NCBI GenBank assembly: GCA_031262035.1
Contig: JAISIL010000086.1
Span: 1-49,312, forward strand
DNA length: 49,312 nt
Direction of reading: 5' to 3'
Source of the DNA: Spirochaetaceae bacterium
GTDB taxonomy: Bacteria; Spirochaetota; Spirochaetia; Treponematales; Breznakiellaceae
The notes below the pieces were generated by a model. That model searched no databases. It had not been told where the DNA came from and saw only the letters and a list, made by a program, of their open reading frames with translations. A program made the translations under genes and the position numbers. The stretch's first letter is position 1. The number at the start of each line of letters is the position of its first letter. Positions 38,829-49,312 of this stretch are shown here, piece by piece.

Positions 38829-39110
38829 CTATACCGCTGTAGATTGTTTACCGATTTCCCGGTAGTATTCGTCGGCGATGAATTCTGGATTTTCGGCCCA
38901 TAAAAGAGTTTTAGTGTTTGTTAATGCCTTATAAACATGTGATTCCATAAATGCAGCATATGAATCATCAAATGAGGAACTCCCTTTTTTTGCAATTATT
39001 TCAACAACACGAGAAATGGTATCAACTATGTCAAAAGAAATGTCTTTTTCATTAAAAACATATTTTTTATCTATTAATGAATCAATGTGCATCATGCTGA
39101 TATTTTCCAT
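38829..39110 (-). CDS. Small protein, third member of the DUF3791/DUF3990 cassette
   Basis: 93 residues, acidic, with no membrane segment. The C-terminal half (AAFMESHVYKALTNTKTLLWAENPEFIADEYYREIG) looks like small helical proteins that, as I recall, accompany DUF3990 genes in other bacteria. It overlaps the DUF3990 gene by 19 bp, so the two are co-expressed. It could be an immunity or antitoxin component; I cannot assign a function. Confidence 0.65.
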   Translation of the reverse strand: MENISMMHIDSLIDKKYVFNEKDISFDIVDTISRVVEIIAKKGSSSFDDSYAAFMESHVYKALTNTKTLLWAENPEFIADEYYREIGKQSTAV

Positions 39111-39577
39111 TCTGTCCTCCTTACAAACAACAACTTTGTCAATGCCTTATCTGTATGAAAAGAAACCTGATTGTTTGGTTTATTATATTTTAATTTTTCC
39201 AATGTATGTTGAGCCGAATCTTGACCTTTTAGAAAAAGATTTAATGTTCTGCGTATTTTATCATCGGCTACAGGTCCAATTACAACATCAAAACGATGTT
39301 GAGTATCCCCTTTTATACGATTAACAAATATCATATCTAACCAGTCCATCGAATAATCTTCAAATGTTTTTATGTCCAATTCGTCATCTATCTCGAATTC
39401 GTATTCATACAAATAACATATTCCCTTATCATACTGCAAACAGATAGATTCAGCCCATTGCCGGGCTTGATTCTCAAAAGTAGTTGTGTAGAAACCTTTC
39501 TCAAAATCCCGTTTGTCTTTACTCAGTGATAGATCGATTGTATCAAACAAGAAAGGTGAACCATGATATAATTTCAT
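39092..39577 (-). CDS. DUF3990 protein, possible ADP-ribosyltransferase-like toxin
   Basis: 161 residues. It starts with MKLYHGSPFLFDTIDL and continues with KRDFEKGFYTTTFENQARQWAES, the hallmark of DUF3990 (a Tyr-His-Gly start and a GFYTT segment), a family placed in the ADP-ribosyltransferase clan. The early YHGS and central FYTT segments match the first and second NAD-binding segments of such enzymes. It overlaps DUF3791 by four bases and the downstream small gene by 19. NAD-dependent toxicity is inferred, not shown. Confidence 0.75.
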   Translation of the reverse strand: MKLYHGSPFLFDTIDLSLSKDKRDFEKGFYTTTFENQARQWAESICLQYDKGICYLYEYEFEIDDELDIKTFEDYSMDWLDMIFVNRIKGDTQHRFDVVIGPVADDKIRRTLNLFLKGQDSAQHTLEKLKYNKPNNQVSFHTDKALTKLLFVRRTEWKISA

Positions 39578-39804
39578 ATCGTTCTCCTTTTTTGTCGTGC
39601 ACTAATAAAATCTTCTGCAAAAGATACAATTTCATCTTCGTCCATAACGCAACTTGTAAAAGTGTGTTCTCGCAAAACATCTGGTAAATTATATGAACGT
39701 ATAAGTTTAAAAGTATCCTGTTCTTTCATGTGATGTTTTTTTGAGTAGGCTTCCACACAATAGACTATTTTGTAGTCTACACATTCTAGTTCGGTACGGG
39801 TCAT
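39574..39804 (-). CDS. DUF3791 protein, putative antitoxin
   Basis: 76 residues from ATG 39804, chosen for the strong SD AGGAGGACC; the longer frame to 39867 lies upstream of the SD and inside the promoter. The sequence DYKIVYCVEAYSKKHHMKEQDTFKLIRSYNLPDVLREHTF is typical of DUF3791, a small helical family often next to DUF3990. First gene of the cassette, as expected of an antitoxin. Confidence 0.75.
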   Translation of the reverse strand: MTRTELECVDYKIVYCVEAYSKKHHMKEQDTFKLIRSYNLPDVLREHTFTSCVMDEDEIVSFAEDFISARQKRRTI

Positions 39805-39828
39805 TTTATTGGTCCTCCTGTATTGTTT

Positions 39829-39857
39829 ATTATAACATGATTTATTGAAAGTAGCAA
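39829..39857 (-). promoter_or_regulatory. Promoter of the DUF3791/DUF3990 cassette
   Basis: Minus strand TTGCTA (39857-39852), a 17-bp spacer and TATAAT (39834-39829), with AGGAGG shortly before the ATG at 39804. Confidence 0.75.
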
Positions 39858-39894
39858 GGGGGGGCAAAATCAGTTTTTGACTGGTTTCGCAGCA

Positions 39895-40032: not shown

Positions 40033-40758
40033 CTAAATAGAATTATCATTAAGATCATCTTCGGTTAGATTCATTAAATAATGGATTATTGTTATCGAAT
40101 CATTACTAACATCACGCTTGTTTATAGACATATACTTTTCCATACCCAGCAATGATTTGATATGTGTGAGTTGTTCATCACGATTAGACCAATTCATGTT
40201 ACCGTTGCTATGGGCACTTGCCAATTCATTTATCCATACATTTATTTTGCTATGCCAGTACTCTGGCGTTTTCTCTTGTACATATCCAACCATTACGGCA
40301 TATGGATGATCGGCTGCATGCTTTCCATTTTTAAATCTTTGAATTCCGCCATTTCCTGTATATTTTGTCTTATCAACAAATACATATTCTCTCTCATCCC
40401 TATCAGCACGATGTGGAGTAGGAAGCCTTTTGGCTTCAATGCAACAAAAGAGTTTTCGATTTACATTAGAATAATCCCTGCCGAGTCTTACCCCTATATC
40501 AGTTATACCTATTCCCTCTTTAGTTTGATTCTCAAATTTGAAAGCTATATTTGTATCAACGGTTTCAAATTCTTGTTTCTCCTCCAAATAGTCTACTAAA
40601 TCCTGTGTTATTAGATCCTCTTGCGATACTACTGTTCCGTTGGCATTCGTACTTTTTATTTCAAAAAGTGATAATACATTATCAAGAAACTGGAAAAGGC
40701 GATTATATATTGGCTCTGGCGATGGTGCTTGCCCTAGTGATGAGGGTACTATATTCAT
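40033..40758 (-). CDS. PD-(D/E)XK nuclease, likely restriction subunit
   Basis: 241 residues. The nuclease core is ITDIGVRLG (Asp about residue 85) followed by LFCCIEAKRL (Glu-x-Lys, about 108-110), then GIQRFKNGKHAADHPYAVMVGYV, a layout seen in restriction-type PD-(D/E)XK enzymes. There is no DNA-recognition domain. The gene starts with a four-base overlap (ATGA) with the 964-aa methylase, so it probably acts with that protein, which would supply target recognition. Last gene of the defence operon. Confidence 0.7.
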   Translation of the reverse strand: MNIVPSSLGQAPSPEPIYNRLFQFLDNVLSLFEIKSTNANGTVVSQEDLITQDLVDYLEEKQEFETVDTNIAFKFENQTKEGIGITDIGVRLGRDYSNVNRKLFCCIEAKRLPTPHRADRDEREYVFVDKTKYTGNGGIQRFKNGKHAADHPYAVMVGYVQEKTPEYWHSKINVWINELASAHSNGNMNWSNRDEQLTHIKSLLGMEKYMSINKRDVSNDSITIIHYLMNLTEDDLNDNSI

Positions 40759-43649
40759 GCCTGCACCCCCACAATATCATCATAAGTTGCATCGGCATCC
40801 CTGAGTGCTTTGCTCTTAAGCCAAAATCGCAACAATTTTGGTTTGATTATGTAAATTTTATTACCATCATCAGAATAAATACGAGCAATTCTATTTGTTT
40901 TTGCCGATCTTGAGACATTCCAATCTTCCAGAATGTTGTCTAAGCTATTATTCATCCATTCTGGATGTAAGTCTACCCTTGGCGTATTCGTATAAGTAAT
41001 TTCGCAAAGATAATATGCCTCGTTTTCAAAGACATGTGTCAATTGATAAGACATGGCATCATTTTCATAATAGTTATTAAGTACAACACAGTATATCCGT
41101 GCAAACTCTCTTAATTCAGGCATTTTTGCATTAGTAGTATTAGTCTTGGCCTTTTCCCCATTACCATATTCAATCAATGTGTATTTTACAACATCATTAA
41201 TGACGACCTTTTCAGTTTCGGTGAAGTTTTTACACAAATTATCTTTAAAAGGGAAACCATTGAAATCAGATTTATAAATTATATAAGGGCCTCTTGACCA
41301 TAAACGATTACTTGCCACCGCAATATAAAAGCAAAGTAAATCAGAATTTTTGGAAAAATATCCCTTTAGCTTTGAGATTGCTTCTTTTGACCCTCTAAAA
41401 GCTATACCTTCAATATTTTCCTTATTTTTCTTTTGATTAAAATCTGATAATGTTATATCGATAGGAAACTTGCCTTTTGATATTAATTTCCTAATACCCC
41501 AATAACGATTTTCTGCAACATTCTTCTCTTGTACAGGGGCAAATAATGGCATATCATTCTTGTCAATAATACCCTCCTTTCTTATATATTCCTCGTGCAC
41601 AGTATTGTTAGCTACTATTTTTTCATTGTAATAAAAGTTGGACAATTTTGGCTTTATATCGTTCATTTTTTTAAAAACATTATATACTCGGCTTCCACCT
41701 AAAAGATTACACTTCCAGATATTTATATCATCTGCAATTGCCATATCTTTAATAACGGAATATAAGTCATAATTGTCAAATTCAAAATACATCCGTTCCT
41801 TGCTGGATTTTGTCCTTTTTGCAGTAATATGGCAAATAGGCTTTTCATCGGGCAAAGTATTATCGGCAAACAATGCCATTGTAACAACTGTTGAGCGGAA
41901 TAACACTCTTCGCAGGAATGTGAAATCAATAATCTGTGAAACATTGTATTCCTTAATCATTGATTTACGCATACTAATCGAGTCTTCTGCATACAAAAAA
42001 TGAGATGAAGGCAATATCAGACATAATTTACCAGTATCCTTTTTCAGTAAATGCATAGTCTTTTCCATGAAAAGAAATGCAAATTCTTTTGATGGGTTAT
42101 TAAATTTTATCGGATATGTATCTGATAACATATCCTGATAATGTTCATACCGAACACCTGCCAGTTCTCCTAGAGCAAATGGAGGATTCCCAAGGACTAT
42201 ATCGAAATCCTTTTTTGTCTTTTCATCAAGCAAATATTCAAAAAAATCTGCTTGGACAATATTATTCTGCTTCTGCAAGTTAATAAATCTGCCAAGATTT
42301 GTCCATATTTCTTTAGGCGTCAACATTGAACATAGTGCCAATTGTAGACTAAAAATTGTAAGATTTACGGATACAGGATTTATATCAACTCCAAAGATAT
42401 TCTGACTAAGTATATCTTTCAATTTGGCAGCATTGGTATCTGCCAATTTACCTTTTCTCAAACTTTCATTTATTCGCCATCTTTGAACAAGCCGTTTATA
42501 TGCAGTTACCAGAAAAATTCCAGATCCGCAGCTCGGGTCAATTATCTTGACATTTTCATTTAGATGATCTTTATCCAGGGGCAAGCATTCATCAACCAAA
42601 AGGTTAACAAGAAAACTTGGTGTATATACGGCTCCTGTTGATTTTTTGTTATATGTATTGCTCTCTGACTTTGTTTTTGGAATTAATTCTTCATAGAAAT
42701 TGCTTATTAGTTCTACTGGTATATTTTCAAATGAATACTCTCTCCATGAAAAGAGATCATCCTTGTAATTTGCCTCGAAAAACCCTGCAAATGAATTAAG
42801 GTTGGCCTGAGAAATCAGCTCAATACCCTTGTCATCCATTGTGAAGATTCCACCATTAAAATGTCCAGCAAGGGCTTTAAGTAATGCTCCCAATTTCCTT
42901 TTTCTGATAATATCAGATAAAGTAATATACCCAGTTTCCTTTTTAAAAAACAATTCTGCAAGATTATTCCCAGTGGTTTCATCAAAACCTGTGTCTTCAA
43001 GATATTTTATCAAAATACAGACTATTAGTAATCTGTCAGCAAATTCAGGCGGCAGAATTTTTTGGTCACGGATTTTATTACGGACACCCCTTAATCCCTT
43101 TACCAAACGCTCTGAAGCTATATTTGATGCTGCAAAATGCCTTTTGACATTTTTTTCTTCCCAAAATGCTCCAGTATTGAAATTTTCTGCATTGTATAAC
43201 TTTATCGCATTATCCAAGTCGCCTAGGTCAATCTTATCAATCGGCTCACATTTTTCTTTGCCTTTGTCTATCATAATTGGAGCACGACCATCGTATACTT
43301 TTATCTCATCTTTATCAATGACAAGATAGGCAGGCACATCGCAACTACTCCAGATATCGCGATGTATTTTAATGTGGTCATCTTCGGATTGTGATAGTAA
43401 AGTATTGTCATAAATGTAAATCTGTGCCTGTGGAGGTCGTCCTTCATCAAAAAATCTGAAATATACTGCATCAGCTTTGAATCCTTTGGCCTTTTCGAGT
43501 GCCAAAATGATTTGAGGGGGGATATTTCTGTCTTTCAGGTAGTGATTAAGCCTGTTTACAATATAGACAGAAGAGTTATTGGCCTCTTCCACCGTAAAAT
43601 TGAGGCGATTCAAGTTCTCAATGTATGTTTTTGCGTTTCCGCCCATCAT
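40755..43649 (-). CDS. N6-adenine DNA methylase with specificity region (964 aa)
   Basis: Gamma-class-like adenine methyltransferase: motif I IIDPSCGSGIFLVTAY (residues about 370-385) for S-adenosylmethionine and motif IV NPPF (about 486-489) for catalysis. Residues 1 to about 150 contain an alpha/beta segment (AVYFRFFDEGRPPQAQIYIYDN...VPAYLVIDKDEIKVYDGR) that recalls the N-terminal domain of type I/IIG enzymes, but I see no complete Glu-x-Lys nuclease core. Residues about 640-900 are likely the target-recognition region. Together with the overlapping PD-(D/E)XK gene it could form a split restriction-modification system. The start is ATGATG with GAGGG upstream. Confidence 0.82.
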   Translation of the reverse strand: MMGGNAKTYIENLNRLNFTVEEANNSSVYIVNRLNHYLKDRNIPPQIILALEKAKGFKADAVYFRFFDEGRPPQAQIYIYDNTLLSQSEDDHIKIHRDIWSSCDVPAYLVIDKDEIKVYDGRAPIMIDKGKEKCEPIDKIDLGDLDNAIKLYNAENFNTGAFWEEKNVKRHFAASNIASERLVKGLRGVRNKIRDQKILPPEFADRLLIVCILIKYLEDTGFDETTGNNLAELFFKKETGYITLSDIIRKRKLGALLKALAGHFNGGIFTMDDKGIELISQANLNSFAGFFEANYKDDLFSWREYSFENIPVELISNFYEELIPKTKSESNTYNKKSTGAVYTPSFLVNLLVDECLPLDKDHLNENVKIIDPSCGSGIFLVTAYKRLVQRWRINESLRKGKLADTNAAKLKDILSQNIFGVDINPVSVNLTIFSLQLALCSMLTPKEIWTNLGRFINLQKQNNIVQADFFEYLLDEKTKKDFDIVLGNPPFALGELAGVRYEHYQDMLSDTYPIKFNNPSKEFAFLFMEKTMHLLKKDTGKLCLILPSSHFLYAEDSISMRKSMIKEYNVSQIIDFTFLRRVLFRSTVVTMALFADNTLPDEKPICHITAKRTKSSKERMYFEFDNYDLYSVIKDMAIADDINIWKCNLLGGSRVYNVFKKMNDIKPKLSNFYYNEKIVANNTVHEEYIRKEGIIDKNDMPLFAPVQEKNVAENRYWGIRKLISKGKFPIDITLSDFNQKKNKENIEGIAFRGSKEAISKLKGYFSKNSDLLCFYIAVASNRLWSRGPYIIYKSDFNGFPFKDNLCKNFTETEKVVINDVVKYTLIEYGNGEKAKTNTTNAKMPELREFARIYCVVLNNYYENDAMSYQLTHVFENEAYYLCEITYTNTPRVDLHPEWMNNSLDNILEDWNVSRSAKTNRIARIYSDDGNKIYIIKPKLLRFWLKSKALRDADATYDDIVGVQA

Positions 43650-43705
43650 ATCCCTCGTCTTTCCATAGTGCCAATTTTTTCTAAAAGTATCAATCCCCTA
43701 TACAT

Positions 43706-46700
43706 TCAAAATCCCTCTCCCTCCACCACCCGTATTTCCTCCTCCTTCAGCCCATATAACCCGTAAACTATCTCATCAATCTGCCTTTCCAGGACCAAAT
43801 TCTCAGGCGAAGCACCATGGGAATCATGTGTACCAGATGCATTGTTAGTCAATAGCTGATCAACTAAAGACACTAGTTTGCTTTGTATCGATTTATTTGG
43901 TTTTGGTAACCGTAATTCCCGAATATCACTTAATGTGATTTGCGTGAAATCATCTTTTCTTGCCGTAACAGAAACCTTGGTGATGAAATATGAAAAAAGG
44001 CGTGAATTAATAATTGCCAATAATACCTTTAAAGGATAACTGACGCCTGGTTTGAGCTTAAATATATAAATATCTTTTTTTACAACAAAGTCCCTGTCGA
44101 TTATGGAAGCCATTACTCTAAATTGACGGCTAATTATCCTTCGAACAAGAACTCTCTCGCCTGTGAAAATATTATAAGTCACAGGTTTTTCTTTTACATT
44201 TTCATTATAGATAATATAATCATAATTCTCATCATCCATGTAATACCTATCAAGCCTACCTACAAAAACTGGTACTGTCTTTTTGGATTTTATTTTCAGG
44301 TACAATTCTTTATCGGCTAGTATACCTCTGGCAGAGACGCATATATCTTCAACCTGCAAAGGTAAGTTATTAAATTTTTGGATTAAGGATCGTGATATTG
44401 GATCAAATATGATTTTAAGATCAGCAGAATTTCCCCACTCTTCTTTTTTTAATGGTTTGAATGGAATATGCAGCATAATTGCAAAATCAATTTTTGCCTT
44501 AGGCGGGAATGAGTATAAATTGGAAATAGTACAAGATAAATCCTTGCCAAAGATAAAAATTCCTGTATCAACATAAGCCTCAGAAAAAATGTCATATGGA
44601 AGTATAATGCCATTCAATAACCGGGCATTTGTTTTAATATATTTCCTGGTTGATATATATGCATCTCCTGTTAGCCAAAATATCGGTATTATTAATGACA
44701 TAATGGCTGATTGATTACACAGAGTAATTGCTCTTTCCATAAAAAGCGTATAAATATCATCAGTTGCGATATAATTTTCTTTTGAATAGCTTTTGTCAAA
44801 TTTTATCCCATACGGTGGATTCCCCACGACCGCATCAAAACCCTTAAATCTGCCATCCTTATCGAGCACTTCCGGGAACTCAAAACGCCATTCGAAAGCA
44901 TTTTTATACAAAGCGCCGCTTTTTATATCTTCCAGGTGTTGTTCAGTTTTTACTAACTCAGCCTGTAGTTCTTTGATGCGTTTTTCCCGCTTTTTATTCT
45001 CTGCATCATCGGTCTCAAAAAGATCGGATGATTTGGTAAGAGACACAAGCTCACCATGCAGCGCTTCCTTATGGGCAAAGGTTTGATCGTTTGCAGCAAC
45101 TCGTGTTTGGAACGAAGCTTTTATATCGCTAATAAGTTTCAGAAGTTCCCGCTTTTTTTCTTTTGATGAAGTGTTCTTATAATCATAGACCGCCTGTTGA
45201 TAATCACTTACGCTGTATTTGGAACCAGCCAGTGCTTCTTTTATATCAGTATCGAGTTGAAATTTGCTCACAAGACTATCGCCACAACGTATATTGATAT
45301 CAATATTGGGTAGGGTTTCAAGATCGGTATAATTGCTTTCTTTCGTGTAATAAGCATTTTTTAGAAGTTCTATCCATAGTCGCAAACGGCATATTCTTAC
45401 TGAATTCTCATTGATATCAACACCAAAAAGGCAGTTTTCGATGATAGTGCGCTTTTCTTTAAATATCGTTTCCTGAACTCTCTGGCTTTCTTTATTTTTA
45501 TAATTATAAGTGAAGAAATTCCCATCTTCATCAAAAATCATAAGTTCATCATTATGAACCTCGGCAGAATAATCGCGAAGTCTTTGGCCATTATTATCTG
45601 CTAATATACGAAGGCGGCTTTTTATGGCAATAAGCTCATTCAGGGCTGATACCAAAAAATGTCCTGACCCGACAGCAGGGTCGCAGATAGTTATGCTGTT
45701 GATAATTTTGTTCGCTTCACTTATTTCGCCAGGATCAATACGATTATATAGCTCGGTAAAATTTTTGCAATCCCATCCTTTGACAGTATTAAACTTATCA
45801 ATTACTGCCCTTTCTATGGTTTCATGACATATGTAAGTTGTGATAAAACCGGGTGTAAAATAAGAACCATCTTTATAACCATTTATTTTTTCAAATATCA
45901 AACCTAAAACAGAGGCATTTATTAACGTCTTGCTTTCTTCCTGTATTGTAGCGCTGCCTTCACTTGAAAAATCATAGGCGTCAAGGAAGTCGAAAATATA
46001 TTCGAGGGTATCAATAACTCCATCGCGCTTTTTCCCTCGTGCATCTTTCAGTACTGTTGATGAATATACTGGCATCTTAATTGTGCGCAGGTTAGATATA
46101 CGGCAATAGCCGTTTTCACTCGAATTTGCTTCCAATTCAAATAATGAGCTATTGAGATATGGTACATGCTCAAAAAGTTTTATAAGGCTTGCCGGACGCT
46201 TTTCTGTTTCCAGGGCTAATACCTTGAAGAAAAGAGCATCCAAGTCCTGGAAGTTTTTGATTTTCTTGCTATTAAGGAAGGTGTAGTTTTTATCACCCAT
46301 GTGATACTGAATTAACTGGCTTTCAAGAAGCTTTAAAAAGAGAATCCGGTTTATCCATGTAATGATAAGTTCAAGGGCAGTATCAAATTGTTCTTCTTCA
46401 TCATAAACCTCTTCAGAGAGCACAAAGATTGCACTTTCCATAAGAGAGCCTTCCTTGCGATCTTCCTCCTTTGAACGAATGATTATTTTCTTTGAACCTT
46501 CCTTTTCTTCTGACAGTCCCATGATGTAAAGCAATTCACGATAAAAGTTTTCATTTAGAGTATTGCTATCATTGGCAAATGGGAGTTTTAATAGATTCTC
46601 AGGTGAGAGAAATTTGTAAAGATTTATGAGTTGATTATCCGCATCCCTATCATTATTGCGAATAATGCTTTCATAGTCAGTAATACTAAACCATGTGTAG

Positions 46701-47299
46701 TTTAATTCTTTCTTATGCTTTTCTATGTAGCTTGCAGCAACCTTGGTATAAAAATCGCCGGTCTTGTCAAAAGATAAAGTCTCTTTGCTTTCAAATTCTG
46801 TAAAAAGATGAACCAAATCTTTATCATTCGCAAACAGTCTTTCAAATTCACTTGCATCAAATATAAACCATTCAATCACGTTTGTTATTATCAGATTTTT
46901 GATTTCAAGATTTTTGTTTATAATGCGTTCTTTCAAGTAGTAATAAAGCAATTCCTGCAATGCCTTTCGATTAAGATTGTCACCGCTAATCATTTCAGTC
47001 TTATTGCCTGGCTTTTTGGTCTCCATAAGTACGCTAATCGGTGATTTCTTGTCAGACCCGGCATGAATCACCAAATCAATATCTTGAGAAGTATTGATGT
47101 AATACACTGGGCTATACCAAGTATTTTTGAGAAAATCAGCTATATCAGTCTTGAAGTGCTCTTCGTGCTCATCAGGAACGGCCTTTATTCTATCCAAAAG
47201 AGTACGGAAGTTGGCTTTGAAGCGATCTATAGATGCTCGCTCTGTGCTTATCTTGCTGTAGGCTTTGTTTAGCGTGTCTTTAATGTCAATCTGCGGCAT
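43706..47299 (-). CDS. Type IIG-like restriction endonuclease-methylase (1197 aa)
   Basis: Single-chain restriction-modification enzyme by architecture. The N-terminal nuclease has DIDLVIHAG (about residues 73-81) and VLMETKKPG (Glu-x-Lys, about 90-98), a PD-(D/E)XK site. A helical linker follows. The N6-adenine methylase has motif I ICDPAVGSGHFLVSAL (about 537-552) and motif IV NPPYGIKF (about 824). Residues about 950-1180 are likely the target-recognition domain (VSVTARKDDFTQITLSDIRELRLPKP near the end is typical of Eco57I-like enzymes). It could both cut and protect. AGGAA lies before the ATG, 27 bp after the HNH gene. Confidence 0.85.
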   Translation of the reverse strand: MPQIDIKDTLNKAYSKISTERASIDRFKANFRTLLDRIKAVPDEHEEHFKTDIADFLKNTWYSPVYYINTSQDIDLVIHAGSDKKSPISVLMETKKPGNKTEMISGDNLNRKALQELLYYYLKERIINKNLEIKNLIITNVIEWFIFDASEFERLFANDKDLVHLFTEFESKETLSFDKTGDFYTKVAASYIEKHKKELNYTWFSITDYESIIRNNDRDADNQLINLYKFLSPENLLKLPFANDSNTLNENFYRELLYIMGLSEEKEGSKKIIIRSKEEDRKEGSLMESAIFVLSEEVYDEEEQFDTALELIITWINRILFLKLLESQLIQYHMGDKNYTFLNSKKIKNFQDLDALFFKVLALETEKRPASLIKLFEHVPYLNSSLFELEANSSENGYCRISNLRTIKMPVYSSTVLKDARGKKRDGVIDTLEYIFDFLDAYDFSSEGSATIQEESKTLINASVLGLIFEKINGYKDGSYFTPGFITTYICHETIERAVIDKFNTVKGWDCKNFTELYNRIDPGEISEANKIINSITICDPAVGSGHFLVSALNELIAIKSRLRILADNNGQRLRDYSAEVHNDELMIFDEDGNFFTYNYKNKESQRVQETIFKEKRTIIENCLFGVDINENSVRICRLRLWIELLKNAYYTKESNYTDLETLPNIDINIRCGDSLVSKFQLDTDIKEALAGSKYSVSDYQQAVYDYKNTSSKEKKRELLKLISDIKASFQTRVAANDQTFAHKEALHGELVSLTKSSDLFETDDAENKKREKRIKELQAELVKTEQHLEDIKSGALYKNAFEWRFEFPEVLDKDGRFKGFDAVVGNPPYGIKFDKSYSKENYIATDDIYTLFMERAITLCNQSAIMSLIIPIFWLTGDAYISTRKYIKTNARLLNGIILPYDIFSEAYVDTGIFIFGKDLSCTISNLYSFPPKAKIDFAIMLHIPFKPLKKEEWGNSADLKIIFDPISRSLIQKFNNLPLQVEDICVSARGILADKELYLKIKSKKTVPVFVGRLDRYYMDDENYDYIIYNENVKEKPVTYNIFTGERVLVRRIISRQFRVMASIIDRDFVVKKDIYIFKLKPGVSYPLKVLLAIINSRLFSYFITKVSVTARKDDFTQITLSDIRELRLPKPNKSIQSKLVSLVDQLLTNNASGTHDSHGASPENLVLERQIDEIVYGLYGLKEEEIRVVEGEGF

Positions 47300-47326
47300 G
47301 GTTTGATTCCTGTATTGTTTGCAGCA

Positions 47327-47917
47327 TCACGTGCCTCCTTCATCTATTCCTTGCATTACTAAAAGAGATGCAACTGCACGGGAATATTCTCTATCTTTTT
47401 CGGCTTCTTTTTTTATTTCAACTAAAGCCTGTGTTCGCAATGAAGCATTTTGACTTCTGAACGCCGCTGTGATAAACGCACTGATTGCATTTAATCGTTC
47501 CTGTCTGTCTTCAATCAAATCGGCGCGGTTTAACTGCAATGCTTTAATGGTAAACTCTCCACGTTCAGACCCCTGTTTACAAAAGGCAAGTGCGCCAATA
47601 AATATAATATGGCCTTCCGGCTCTTCGTCATATGGGTTTATAAAAGGAAGCGCTTCATCATAAATATCACCTTTGTAATTATTGCAGCGTTCACAGCTAT
47701 ACCCGAGGTTATCCCACACAAATTCCAATTCAGGGTATTTTGCTTTTGGCTTTATATGTTCTACATGCGCAAAACTATTATGGTCAATTTTACTTTCACA
47801 ATACATACATTTACCAGATGTTGATTTTCGAAGCGCATCTTTATTCTGCGGATGTTTATAATTGCCTTTCGCAAGAGCTTCTGGATTTGGACAAGCTGGA
47901 CGAGCAAGTGCAACCAT
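47327..47917 (-). CDS. ptuB: PtuB-like HNH endonuclease (Septu defence)
   Basis: 196 residues. The HNH core is clear: CMYC (about residues 37-40), HVEHIKPKAKYPE (50-62), WDNLGYSCERCNNYKGD (67-83). It thus has two CxxC pairs for a structural zinc and the His-Asn-type active site. Size and motif match PtuB, the nuclease of Septu. It overlaps the ATPase gene by one base. In known Septu the ATPase holds and gates the nuclease during phage infection; this is inferred here from family and context. Confidence 0.8.
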   Translation of the reverse strand: MVALARPACPNPEALAKGNYKHPQNKDALRKSTSGKCMYCESKIDHNSFAHVEHIKPKAKYPELEFVWDNLGYSCERCNNYKGDIYDEALPFINPYDEEPEGHIIFIGALAFCKQGSERGEFTIKALQLNRADLIEDRQERLNAISAFITAAFRSQNASLRTQALVEIKKEAEKDREYSRAVASLLVMQGIDEGGT

Positions 47918-49137
47918 TAGTGGGCCTCCAGTATTTTGGCGGCAGATTCCGGAAAAAATTCTGCAAGACCAGATTCCGTAAGTTCCTTTTTTAAAGATTC
48001 AAAAGAAATTTTATCAGGTTCTAAGGCACTGTATTTTTTCATAATTTCATTAAGGCGATTTTCTGCCCATATTGGCATTGCCACAGGAACTCCAAGATAA
48101 TCACGCAATACCTCGTTTGGCGATTTGACTTCTGAAATTACACAAGATTCATCTTTTCCCAAATCATAAACAAGCGTATCAAGAGTGGAAGTTAAGATAA
48201 AGGGTGAATGTGTGGTAACAATAAATTGCAATTGGGGGAAAGACTCTATTAAGAATGGTAATATGAGTCTTTGTAATGAAACATGGAGATGGGAGTCAAT
48301 TTCATCGACAAAAACAATTCCCTCTAGCTCAAAAGGTTTTACTCCAAAGTATTCCGTACGCATAAGTAAATCCGCATAAACATCAAATATCGCGCTATAA
48401 CCGGCAGAAAGTGTTTGGAAAGAAAACAGCGGTTTTTCTTTTTGCTGGATTAGAAACTTGTTTCTGTTCTTATGAGTATCAAATTTCAGTTTAATCTCAT
48501 CATCTTCAAATATTCTTTTAAGGATAGACTCAAAAGAATTAAACCATCTATCTATTTCATCAGCGAGTGTCATATTGTTGTCTTCAGTTATTGCAAACGA
48601 TCTTCTGGTTTTTAAATTTAGAAGATGTTGTTCTAAATATTTGCCTACATTTTTATACTGGGCAACACCAAGATTTGTATCCAACTCATCTGCTAAACTT
48701 TGCGGAACCGAAGCTGGAGCAATTTCAGAATAGCGCTTATCTTCATAATAACAAAGTGTGGCTTTGTTATTATTGTAATTATTAATGAGTACATCTTTAT
48801 CTGTAAAAATAACATTTATGGAATGTGCTATTTCAAACTCGGAAGCAATATGCTCCATGTTATCAATTTTCTGTTTGTATCGGTTATATTCTACTGACCC
48901 ATTTTCTTGTAACAAGAGCATATTTCTTAATTCTTTTAATTGTTCCGTTACTTTTTTCAAATTGGACTCACCCTGGCTGTTCACTGATGTAGAGGCTATA
49001 TAATTAATTGCTTGTAATAACGAAGTCTTCCCCGACCCGTTAGCCCCGGTCACAATAAGGTTCTTCCCCTTGAGTTCAATATCCACTGTCTTGTGGGTGT
49101 GTGGTATCTCACCTGTTATACGTTCAATGTATTTCAT
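47917..49137 (-). CDS. ptuA: PtuA-like AAA/ABC ATPase (Septu defence)
   Basis: 406 residues, of the OLD/RecF-like ATPase class. Walker A GANGSGKTS (about 31-39), a signature-like LSAGYSA, Walker B IVFVDEIDSHLH (about 272-283) and switch His TTHSPFIL are all present. The middle holds helices without a zinc hook. Size and the immediate HNH partner match Septu PtuA. It is the first gene of the operon, with AAGGAGG before the ATG and a consensus promoter 24 bp upstream. No reverse transcriptase lies nearby, so this is not a retron-linked version. Confidence 0.82.
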   Translation of the reverse strand: MKYIERITGEIPHTHKTVDIELKGKNLIVTGANGSGKTSLLQAINYIASTSVNSQGESNLKKVTEQLKELRNMLLLQENGSVEYNRYKQKIDNMEHIASEFEIAHSINVIFTDKDVLINNYNNNKATLCYYEDKRYSEIAPASVPQSLADELDTNLGVAQYKNVGKYLEQHLLNLKTRRSFAITEDNNMTLADEIDRWFNSFESILKRIFEDDEIKLKFDTHKNRNKFLIQQKEKPLFSFQTLSAGYSAIFDVYADLLMRTEYFGVKPFELEGIVFVDEIDSHLHVSLQRLILPFLIESFPQLQFIVTTHSPFILTSTLDTLVYDLGKDESCVISEVKSPNEVLRDYLGVPVAMPIWAENRLNEIMKKYSALEPDKISFESLKKELTESGLAEFFPESAAKILEAH

Positions 49138-49160
49138 CTGGCTAGTCCTCCTTGCCTTAT

Positions 49161-49189
49161 ATTATAGACTTGTTTGACTCTTTTGTCAA
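49161..49189 (-). promoter_or_regulatory. Consensus promoter of the defence operon
   Basis: Minus strand TTGACA (49189-49184), a spacer of exactly 17 bp and TATAAT (49166-49161): a perfect sigma-70-type promoter. The -35 box forms part of the inverted repeat TTGAC-AAAAGA-GTCAA, a possible operator. Confidence 0.85.
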
Positions 49190-49199
49190 CATCGCGAAT

Positions 49200-49260
49200 T
49201 GCCTCATAACTAATCTAGCCGAAAAGGGGTGGCTGCCTCATAACCCAAATCTAGCCGAAA
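49200..49260. repeat. Two direct repeats upstream of the defence promoter
   Basis: TGCCTCATAAC...AATCTAGCCGAAA occurs at 49200-49224 and 49234-49260; the second copy has two extra bases in the middle. They start about 10 bp upstream of the -35 box and could bind a regulator, or be the trace of an integration end. Confidence 0.7.
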
Positions 49261-49262
49261 GA

Positions 49263-49279
49263 AACTGCCAACGGCAGTT
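49263..49279. repeat. Mini-palindrome AACTGCC-AAC-GGCAGTT
   Basis: Perfect 7-bp arms. On the other strand the loop reads GTT, so the core is GCC-GTT-GGC, the same core as the mini-hairpins at 4861-4874 and 6004-6019. Confidence 0.65.
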
Positions 49280-49312
49280 ATTTTCCCGTATCATGGCTCA
49301 GCCCTTCATTCC

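Follow-up and report, generated by a model that had tools for sequence, protein, structure and literature searches.

A predicted spirochaete defence operon combines a Septu pair with two restriction modules behind one promoter

The window, i.e. the whole stretch of 49,312 nucleotides of a Spirochaetaceae contig (JAISIL010000086.1) that was analysed, carries at its right end five open reading frames, all on the minus strand, with junction spacings of -1, +27, +56 and -4 bases. An earlier note made from the sequence alone had described these frames, and its coordinates and spacings were reproduced exactly. In the direction of transcription, the features are as follows:

49195..49312, minus strand: right end of an insertion sequence, within which the contig ends; 5 bp (CGATG, 49190-49194) separate it from the -35 box
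49161..49189, minus strand: sigma-70 promoter TTGACA-17-TATAAT, the sole perfect match
47917..49137, minus strand: ptuA, 406 aa, Septu type I ATPase of the ABC type (PADLOC PtuA1 PDLC00268, E 5e-111; Pfam AAA_21)
47327..47917, minus strand: ptuB, 196 aa, HNH nuclease of Septu (PADLOC PtuB1 PDLC00337, E 6e-67)
43706..47299, minus strand: 1197-aa type IIG restriction enzyme-methyltransferase (PADLOC PDLC03612, E 4e-227)
40755..43649, minus strand: 964-aa Eco57I-class adenine methyltransferase with a seemingly degenerate nuclease-like N-terminus (domain match and homologue alignment)
40033..40758, minus strand: 241-aa predicted PD-(D/E)XK nuclease, putative partner of the 964-aa methylase (D87..E108-x-K110 invariant in homologues)

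The best PADLOC models for the first two genes are those of Septu type I, PtuA1 and PtuB1. The motifs of PtuA look intact (Walker A GANGSGKT, Walker B VFVDEIDSHLH) and are invariant in the alignment, and PtuB has an intact-looking HNH motif and two CxxC pairs. Solved structures exist for relatives of both proteins, and the closest PtuA relatives come from genome bins of spirochaetes and Treponema, names that suggest a gut spirochaete as the probable host. With Walker A and B motifs in PtuA and an adjoining PtuB with HNH, ptuAB is, as judged from its sequence, a complete Septu type I pair.

The 1197-aa protein contains a DUF7149 domain with a PD-(D/E)XK motif (D75..E93-x-K95), DUF7814, an Eco57I adenine methylase domain and a TaqI_C specificity domain. 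The D75..E93-x-K95 and NPPY motifs look intact, and the N-terminal D..E-x-K is invariant across the aligned homologues. Sequence comparison of this enzyme with solved structures found no relative. Nuclease, methylase and specificity region lie within one chain, and the protein is thus predicted to be a complete single-chain type IIG enzyme.

In the 964-aa methylase the motifs DPSCGSG and NPPF look intact. The region N-terminal to the methylase domain is conserved among its homologues without a recognisable E-x-K, and looks like a degenerate nuclease. A small protein is encoded directly after the methylase in most of the loci read (L062-L064, L071-L073, L075), with D87, E108 and K110 invariant. 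An adenine methylase followed by a conserved nuclease-like gene is the arrangement of a two-gene type II system; hence, given this conserved small gene and the lack of E-x-K in the methylase N-terminus, the 964-aa and 241-aa proteins look like a two-gene type II restriction module. The AlphaFold model of the 241-aa protein had low confidence (pLDDT 68) and gave only weak structural matches, with McrBC, NucC, EcoRI and BbvCI among unrelated folds, and was therefore set aside; that of the 964-aa methylase (pLDDT 35) was unusable. The pair is also conserved on alphaproteobacterial plasmids and in genomes of the phylum, there without ptuAB. On an Agrobacterium plasmid (L063, 10553-12708) it adjoins a convergent ABC-type ATPase gene and a hypothetical gene, possibly another restriction-ATPase pairing. 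At a further locus (L251, 6318-11489) a homologue of the 964-aa methylase is followed by a 208-aa gene and then by an N6/N4 methylase.

Family matches, motifs and layout thus support the gene identities given in the earlier note, which had described Septu plus two adenine-methylase restriction modules. On these grounds the operon is predicted to comprise three separate anti-virus modules, namely the Septu nuclease pair and two systems for DNA restriction.

The single perfect promoter reported earlier is present as well. TTGACA-17-TATAAT is the only site matching at 12 of 12 positions in the 10.6-kb region, where 0.018 such sites are expected from first-order Markov sequences. At a looser cut-off the region contains 38 promoter-like sites, against 42 expected from shuffling, and no terminator-like sites were found in the intergenic gaps of the operon. 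Hence, the statement that no other promoter is evident holds at the sensitivity of the promoter scan used, and the five genes likely form a single transcription unit. The G+C content of the island is 35.6%, compared with 48.6% for the remainder of the contig, and the island was therefore probably acquired horizontally.

Downstream of the operon (window 38829-39867) lies a group of three genes, encoding DUF3791, DUF3990 and a 93-aa protein, that are listed among the PADLOC candidates PDC-M13. This group has its own promoter-like site (TTGCTA-17-TATAAT, 39857-39829) and is probably a toxin-antitoxin-like defence candidate.

The insertion sequence at the promoter was examined at loci L156-L166 and L205-L215 and at window 49190-49312. 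It encodes a transposase of 411 aa with an rve domain. We found 11 right ends and 11 left ends in the genome that carries the operon; six of these right ends could be matched to a left end by their identical 5-bp duplication, with two left ends as candidates in one of the six cases. A complete relative (G321) contains seven copies of about 1.4 kb, of which six have a verified 5-bp duplication. In all 18 right ends from the two genomes the 5-bp duplication is followed immediately by a -35-like hexamer, always in the same orientation. The mean number of -35 matches at that offset is 4.9 of 6, versus 0.6 to 2.4 elsewhere, and a -10 box follows 16 to 18 nt on. No promoter boxes were found at the left ends in the same two genomes. 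Single copies in four further genomes have the same placement relative to the -35 box. This consistent placement, 5 bp from -35 boxes, is further evidence that the promoter of the operon is real.

The element has the size of IS1202 family members and, like them, a single gene, a duplication of 5 bp and a one-way placement; it is assigned to the family by this resemblance. Known IS1202 family elements sit 5 bp away from the XerC site within dif sites, and the paper on them says nothing of promoters (PMC10132070). The insertion sequence looks like a transposon homing on sigma-70 promoters. No description of a promoter-targeting transposon of this kind was found in the literature searched, and the IS1202-like element is apparently undescribed as such.

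We searched for the five-gene set in 296 genomes of the phylum, 200 genomes of the family, plasmids and the 80 nearest PtuA loci, and found no second instance. Among the 200 family genomes, PtuA occurs in six others, the type IIG enzyme in seven and the methylase in five, and these lists do not overlap. None of them is thus a second genome with any two of the three, in agreement with the neighbourhoods fetched. The other family genomes contain eight type IIG loci and five methylase loci, all without ptuAB. In the phylum set, 16 type IIG loci were found across 13 other genomes, again with no ptuAB in the neighbourhoods that could be read; several type IIG and methylase homologues sit on short contigs that cut off their neighbours (e.g. 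L039, L023). Homologues of the methylase are also carried by 27 plasmid records, and the three neighbourhoods read among them are without ptuAB.

The earlier note had taken the genes for one layered system, and had proposed looking for a conserved ptuAB neighbour of the 1197-aa and 964-aa homologues. No such neighbour was found, and methylase homologues occur without ptuAB, part of the outcome that the note itself had named as speaking against its proposal. Its layered system, understood as a dedicated conserved set, is therefore not upheld: the modules assort independently in the 200 family genomes, and a dedicated conserved five-gene system is not supported. The exact set is new in that we found no other instance, and nested defence modules as such have been described before. 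In the reading that we favour, the operon is a mosaic of three portable modules, horizontally acquired, behind one strong promoter.

Restriction or BREX genes were detected in the flanks of 6 of the 80 PtuA loci nearest to this one in the genome collection, as sought in the stored flanks with seed proteins and motifs, by which some families may be missed. Each of the six has ptuA within the restriction or BREX locus or immediately next to it. One is a type III locus with the order mod-ptuA-ptuB-res (L078), one a type I locus with hsdS-ptuAB-hsdR (L155), and four are BREX loci. In one of these ptuA comes after pglX (L153), and in the other three it is found between pglX and pglZ, with at least one gene intervening (L122, L123, L154). 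For the remaining loci, about 74 of the 80, the stored flanks yielded no restriction or BREX gene. A Persicobacter plasmid outside this set (L068) carries a type I locus with the order hsdM-x-hsdS-ptuA-ptuB-[transposase]-hsdR. In the closest relative (L235, PtuA 56% identical) the end of ptuB and the beginning of a type III mod gene share 8 nt; the mod frame is broken in its draft contig. Stand-alone close relatives occur too, such as L076 (PtuA 53%) and L077, a near-twin of the embedded L078. Short PtuB-like genes of about 100 aa, in which the start and end of PtuB are kept and the HNH middle is missing, adjoin intact-looking ptuA genes at L122 (11163-11498), a BREX locus, and L146 (3279-3581).

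In the tree of PtuA, the cases embedded in restriction or BREX loci fall in separate clades, from which it follows that the association of PtuAB with methylation-based defence operons arose, as far as the tree tells, several independent times. The separate lineages with PtuAB in or against such operons comprise type IIG (the present operon), type III twice, type I twice, and BREX. Within the family, three of the seven PtuA loci adjoin a methylase gene, which chance would rarely produce (P about 0.004 with as many as 5% of all genes counted as neighbours of this kind, and with the true base rate uncertain because defence genes cluster). The narrower idea of the earlier note, that Septu backs up restriction, gains indirect support from this repeated and independent placement with type I, II and III restriction and BREX, but is weakened by the many relatives that stand alone.

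Several readings of the operon can be weighed against this evidence. We consider it about equally probable as not (roughly 0.5) that PtuAB is a portable back-up effector, loosely coupled to restriction, rather than part of a new five-gene machine. This reading draws on the repeated placement of PtuAB in methylation-based operons and on precedents for an ABC-ATPase nuclease answering failed restriction, namely PrrC with type I enzymes (PMC2610378, PMC11555353) and PARIS with BREX (PMC12839542). Plain clustering in a defence island, in which three unrelated modules landed side by side and share a promoter with no functional interaction, is a serious but somewhat less probable alternative. Defence genes tend to cluster anyway, each module is found alone elsewhere, and the candidate toxin-antitoxin group with DUF3791 and DUF3990 directly downstream fits such an island. 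However, PtuAB recurs within individual restriction or BREX systems of several types, where genes often overlap or come close to doing so, a pattern more specific than island proximity.

We think it unlikely that the five genes form an integrated machine, a Septu version of PrrC in which PtuAB would be held inactive by the type IIG enzyme or the 964-aa methylase and freed when a phage disables restriction. The single promoter and tight spacing would suit such a machine, as would PrrC (PMC2610378) and PARIS (PMC12839542). Yet neither the set nor any two modules recur in the 200 family genomes, and the PtuAB partners differ in type among relatives, making a conserved specific protein interface unlikely. 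Very improbable, finally, is an upstream controller of ptuAB, such as a retron or regulator, cut off by the insertion sequence or lying beyond the contig end. The contig does end in an insertion sequence, which lies upstream of the -35 box at a distance of 5 bp, and the PtuAB of retrons is kept in check by reverse transcriptase and msDNA (PMC12948488), but PtuA best matches stand-alone Septu models and, in the relatives that were read, ptuAB had no reverse transcriptase beside it. The genes of the operon itself, whose contig ends upstream of ptuA, include no reverse transcriptase or retron.

Restriction is established as a first defence layer for these enzyme families. If PtuAB is a portable back-up effector, the two restriction modules would form this first layer by marking host adenines and cutting unmarked invading DNA. 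PtuAB would stay silent until infection proceeds, as it might if a phage inhibited restriction, outlived it or left broken DNA behind. Once fired, it might cleave tRNA or else nicked DNA, like the PtuAB pairs studied so far: tRNA-Tyr is cleaved by the PtuAB of a Septu and of a retron, and nicked DNA is the reported target of another Septu pair (PMC13096335, PMC11555353). The layers would be linked loosely, by shared transcription and perhaps a shared trigger, with no obligate complex.

A bolder extension, which we regard as doubtful, is that this lineage of Septu serves as a general and portable means of sensing failed restriction, silenced by, or reading the products of, whichever methylation-based system it has joined (types I, IIG, III or BREX). 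If so, the present operon would for the first time add type IIG and two-gene type II enzymes to its partners. Septu pairs have mostly been studied alone, and the independent occurrence of PtuAB next to or within BREX operons and restriction operons of types I, II and III suggests that some are back-up effectors for restriction. The operons listed here are concrete places for testing synergy between Septu and restriction.

Several known systems share elements with this operon. Like other type IIG restriction enzymes (PDLC03612), the 1197-aa protein combines nuclease, adenine methylase and specificity domain in a single chain, but the relatives examined have no ptuAB neighbour. Embedded defence genes, such as DarTG2 in a type I operon (Payne et al. 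preprint cited in PMC12255303), are likewise modules nested in another system's operon; ptuAB here lies at the 5' end and not between the subunits of one system. Like PtuAB here, the PrrC that accompanies type I enzymes (EcoprrI, PrrC170) is an ABC-ATPase nuclease encoded in a restriction operon, where it acts as a tRNA nuclease and second layer (PMC11555353). PtuAB differs in being made by two genes, one of them for an HNH nuclease, and the restriction genes of the present operon belong to type II. OLD-ABC and HNH dyads and PARIS in BREX loci are also ABC ATPases and nucleases recruited as back-up to a methylation-based system (PMC12839542), although in this operon type IIG plus type II restriction takes the place of BREX. 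With Septu type I the operon shares an ATPase and an HNH nuclease encoded as an overlapping pair, but here two restriction modules follow this pair directly and in the same orientation.
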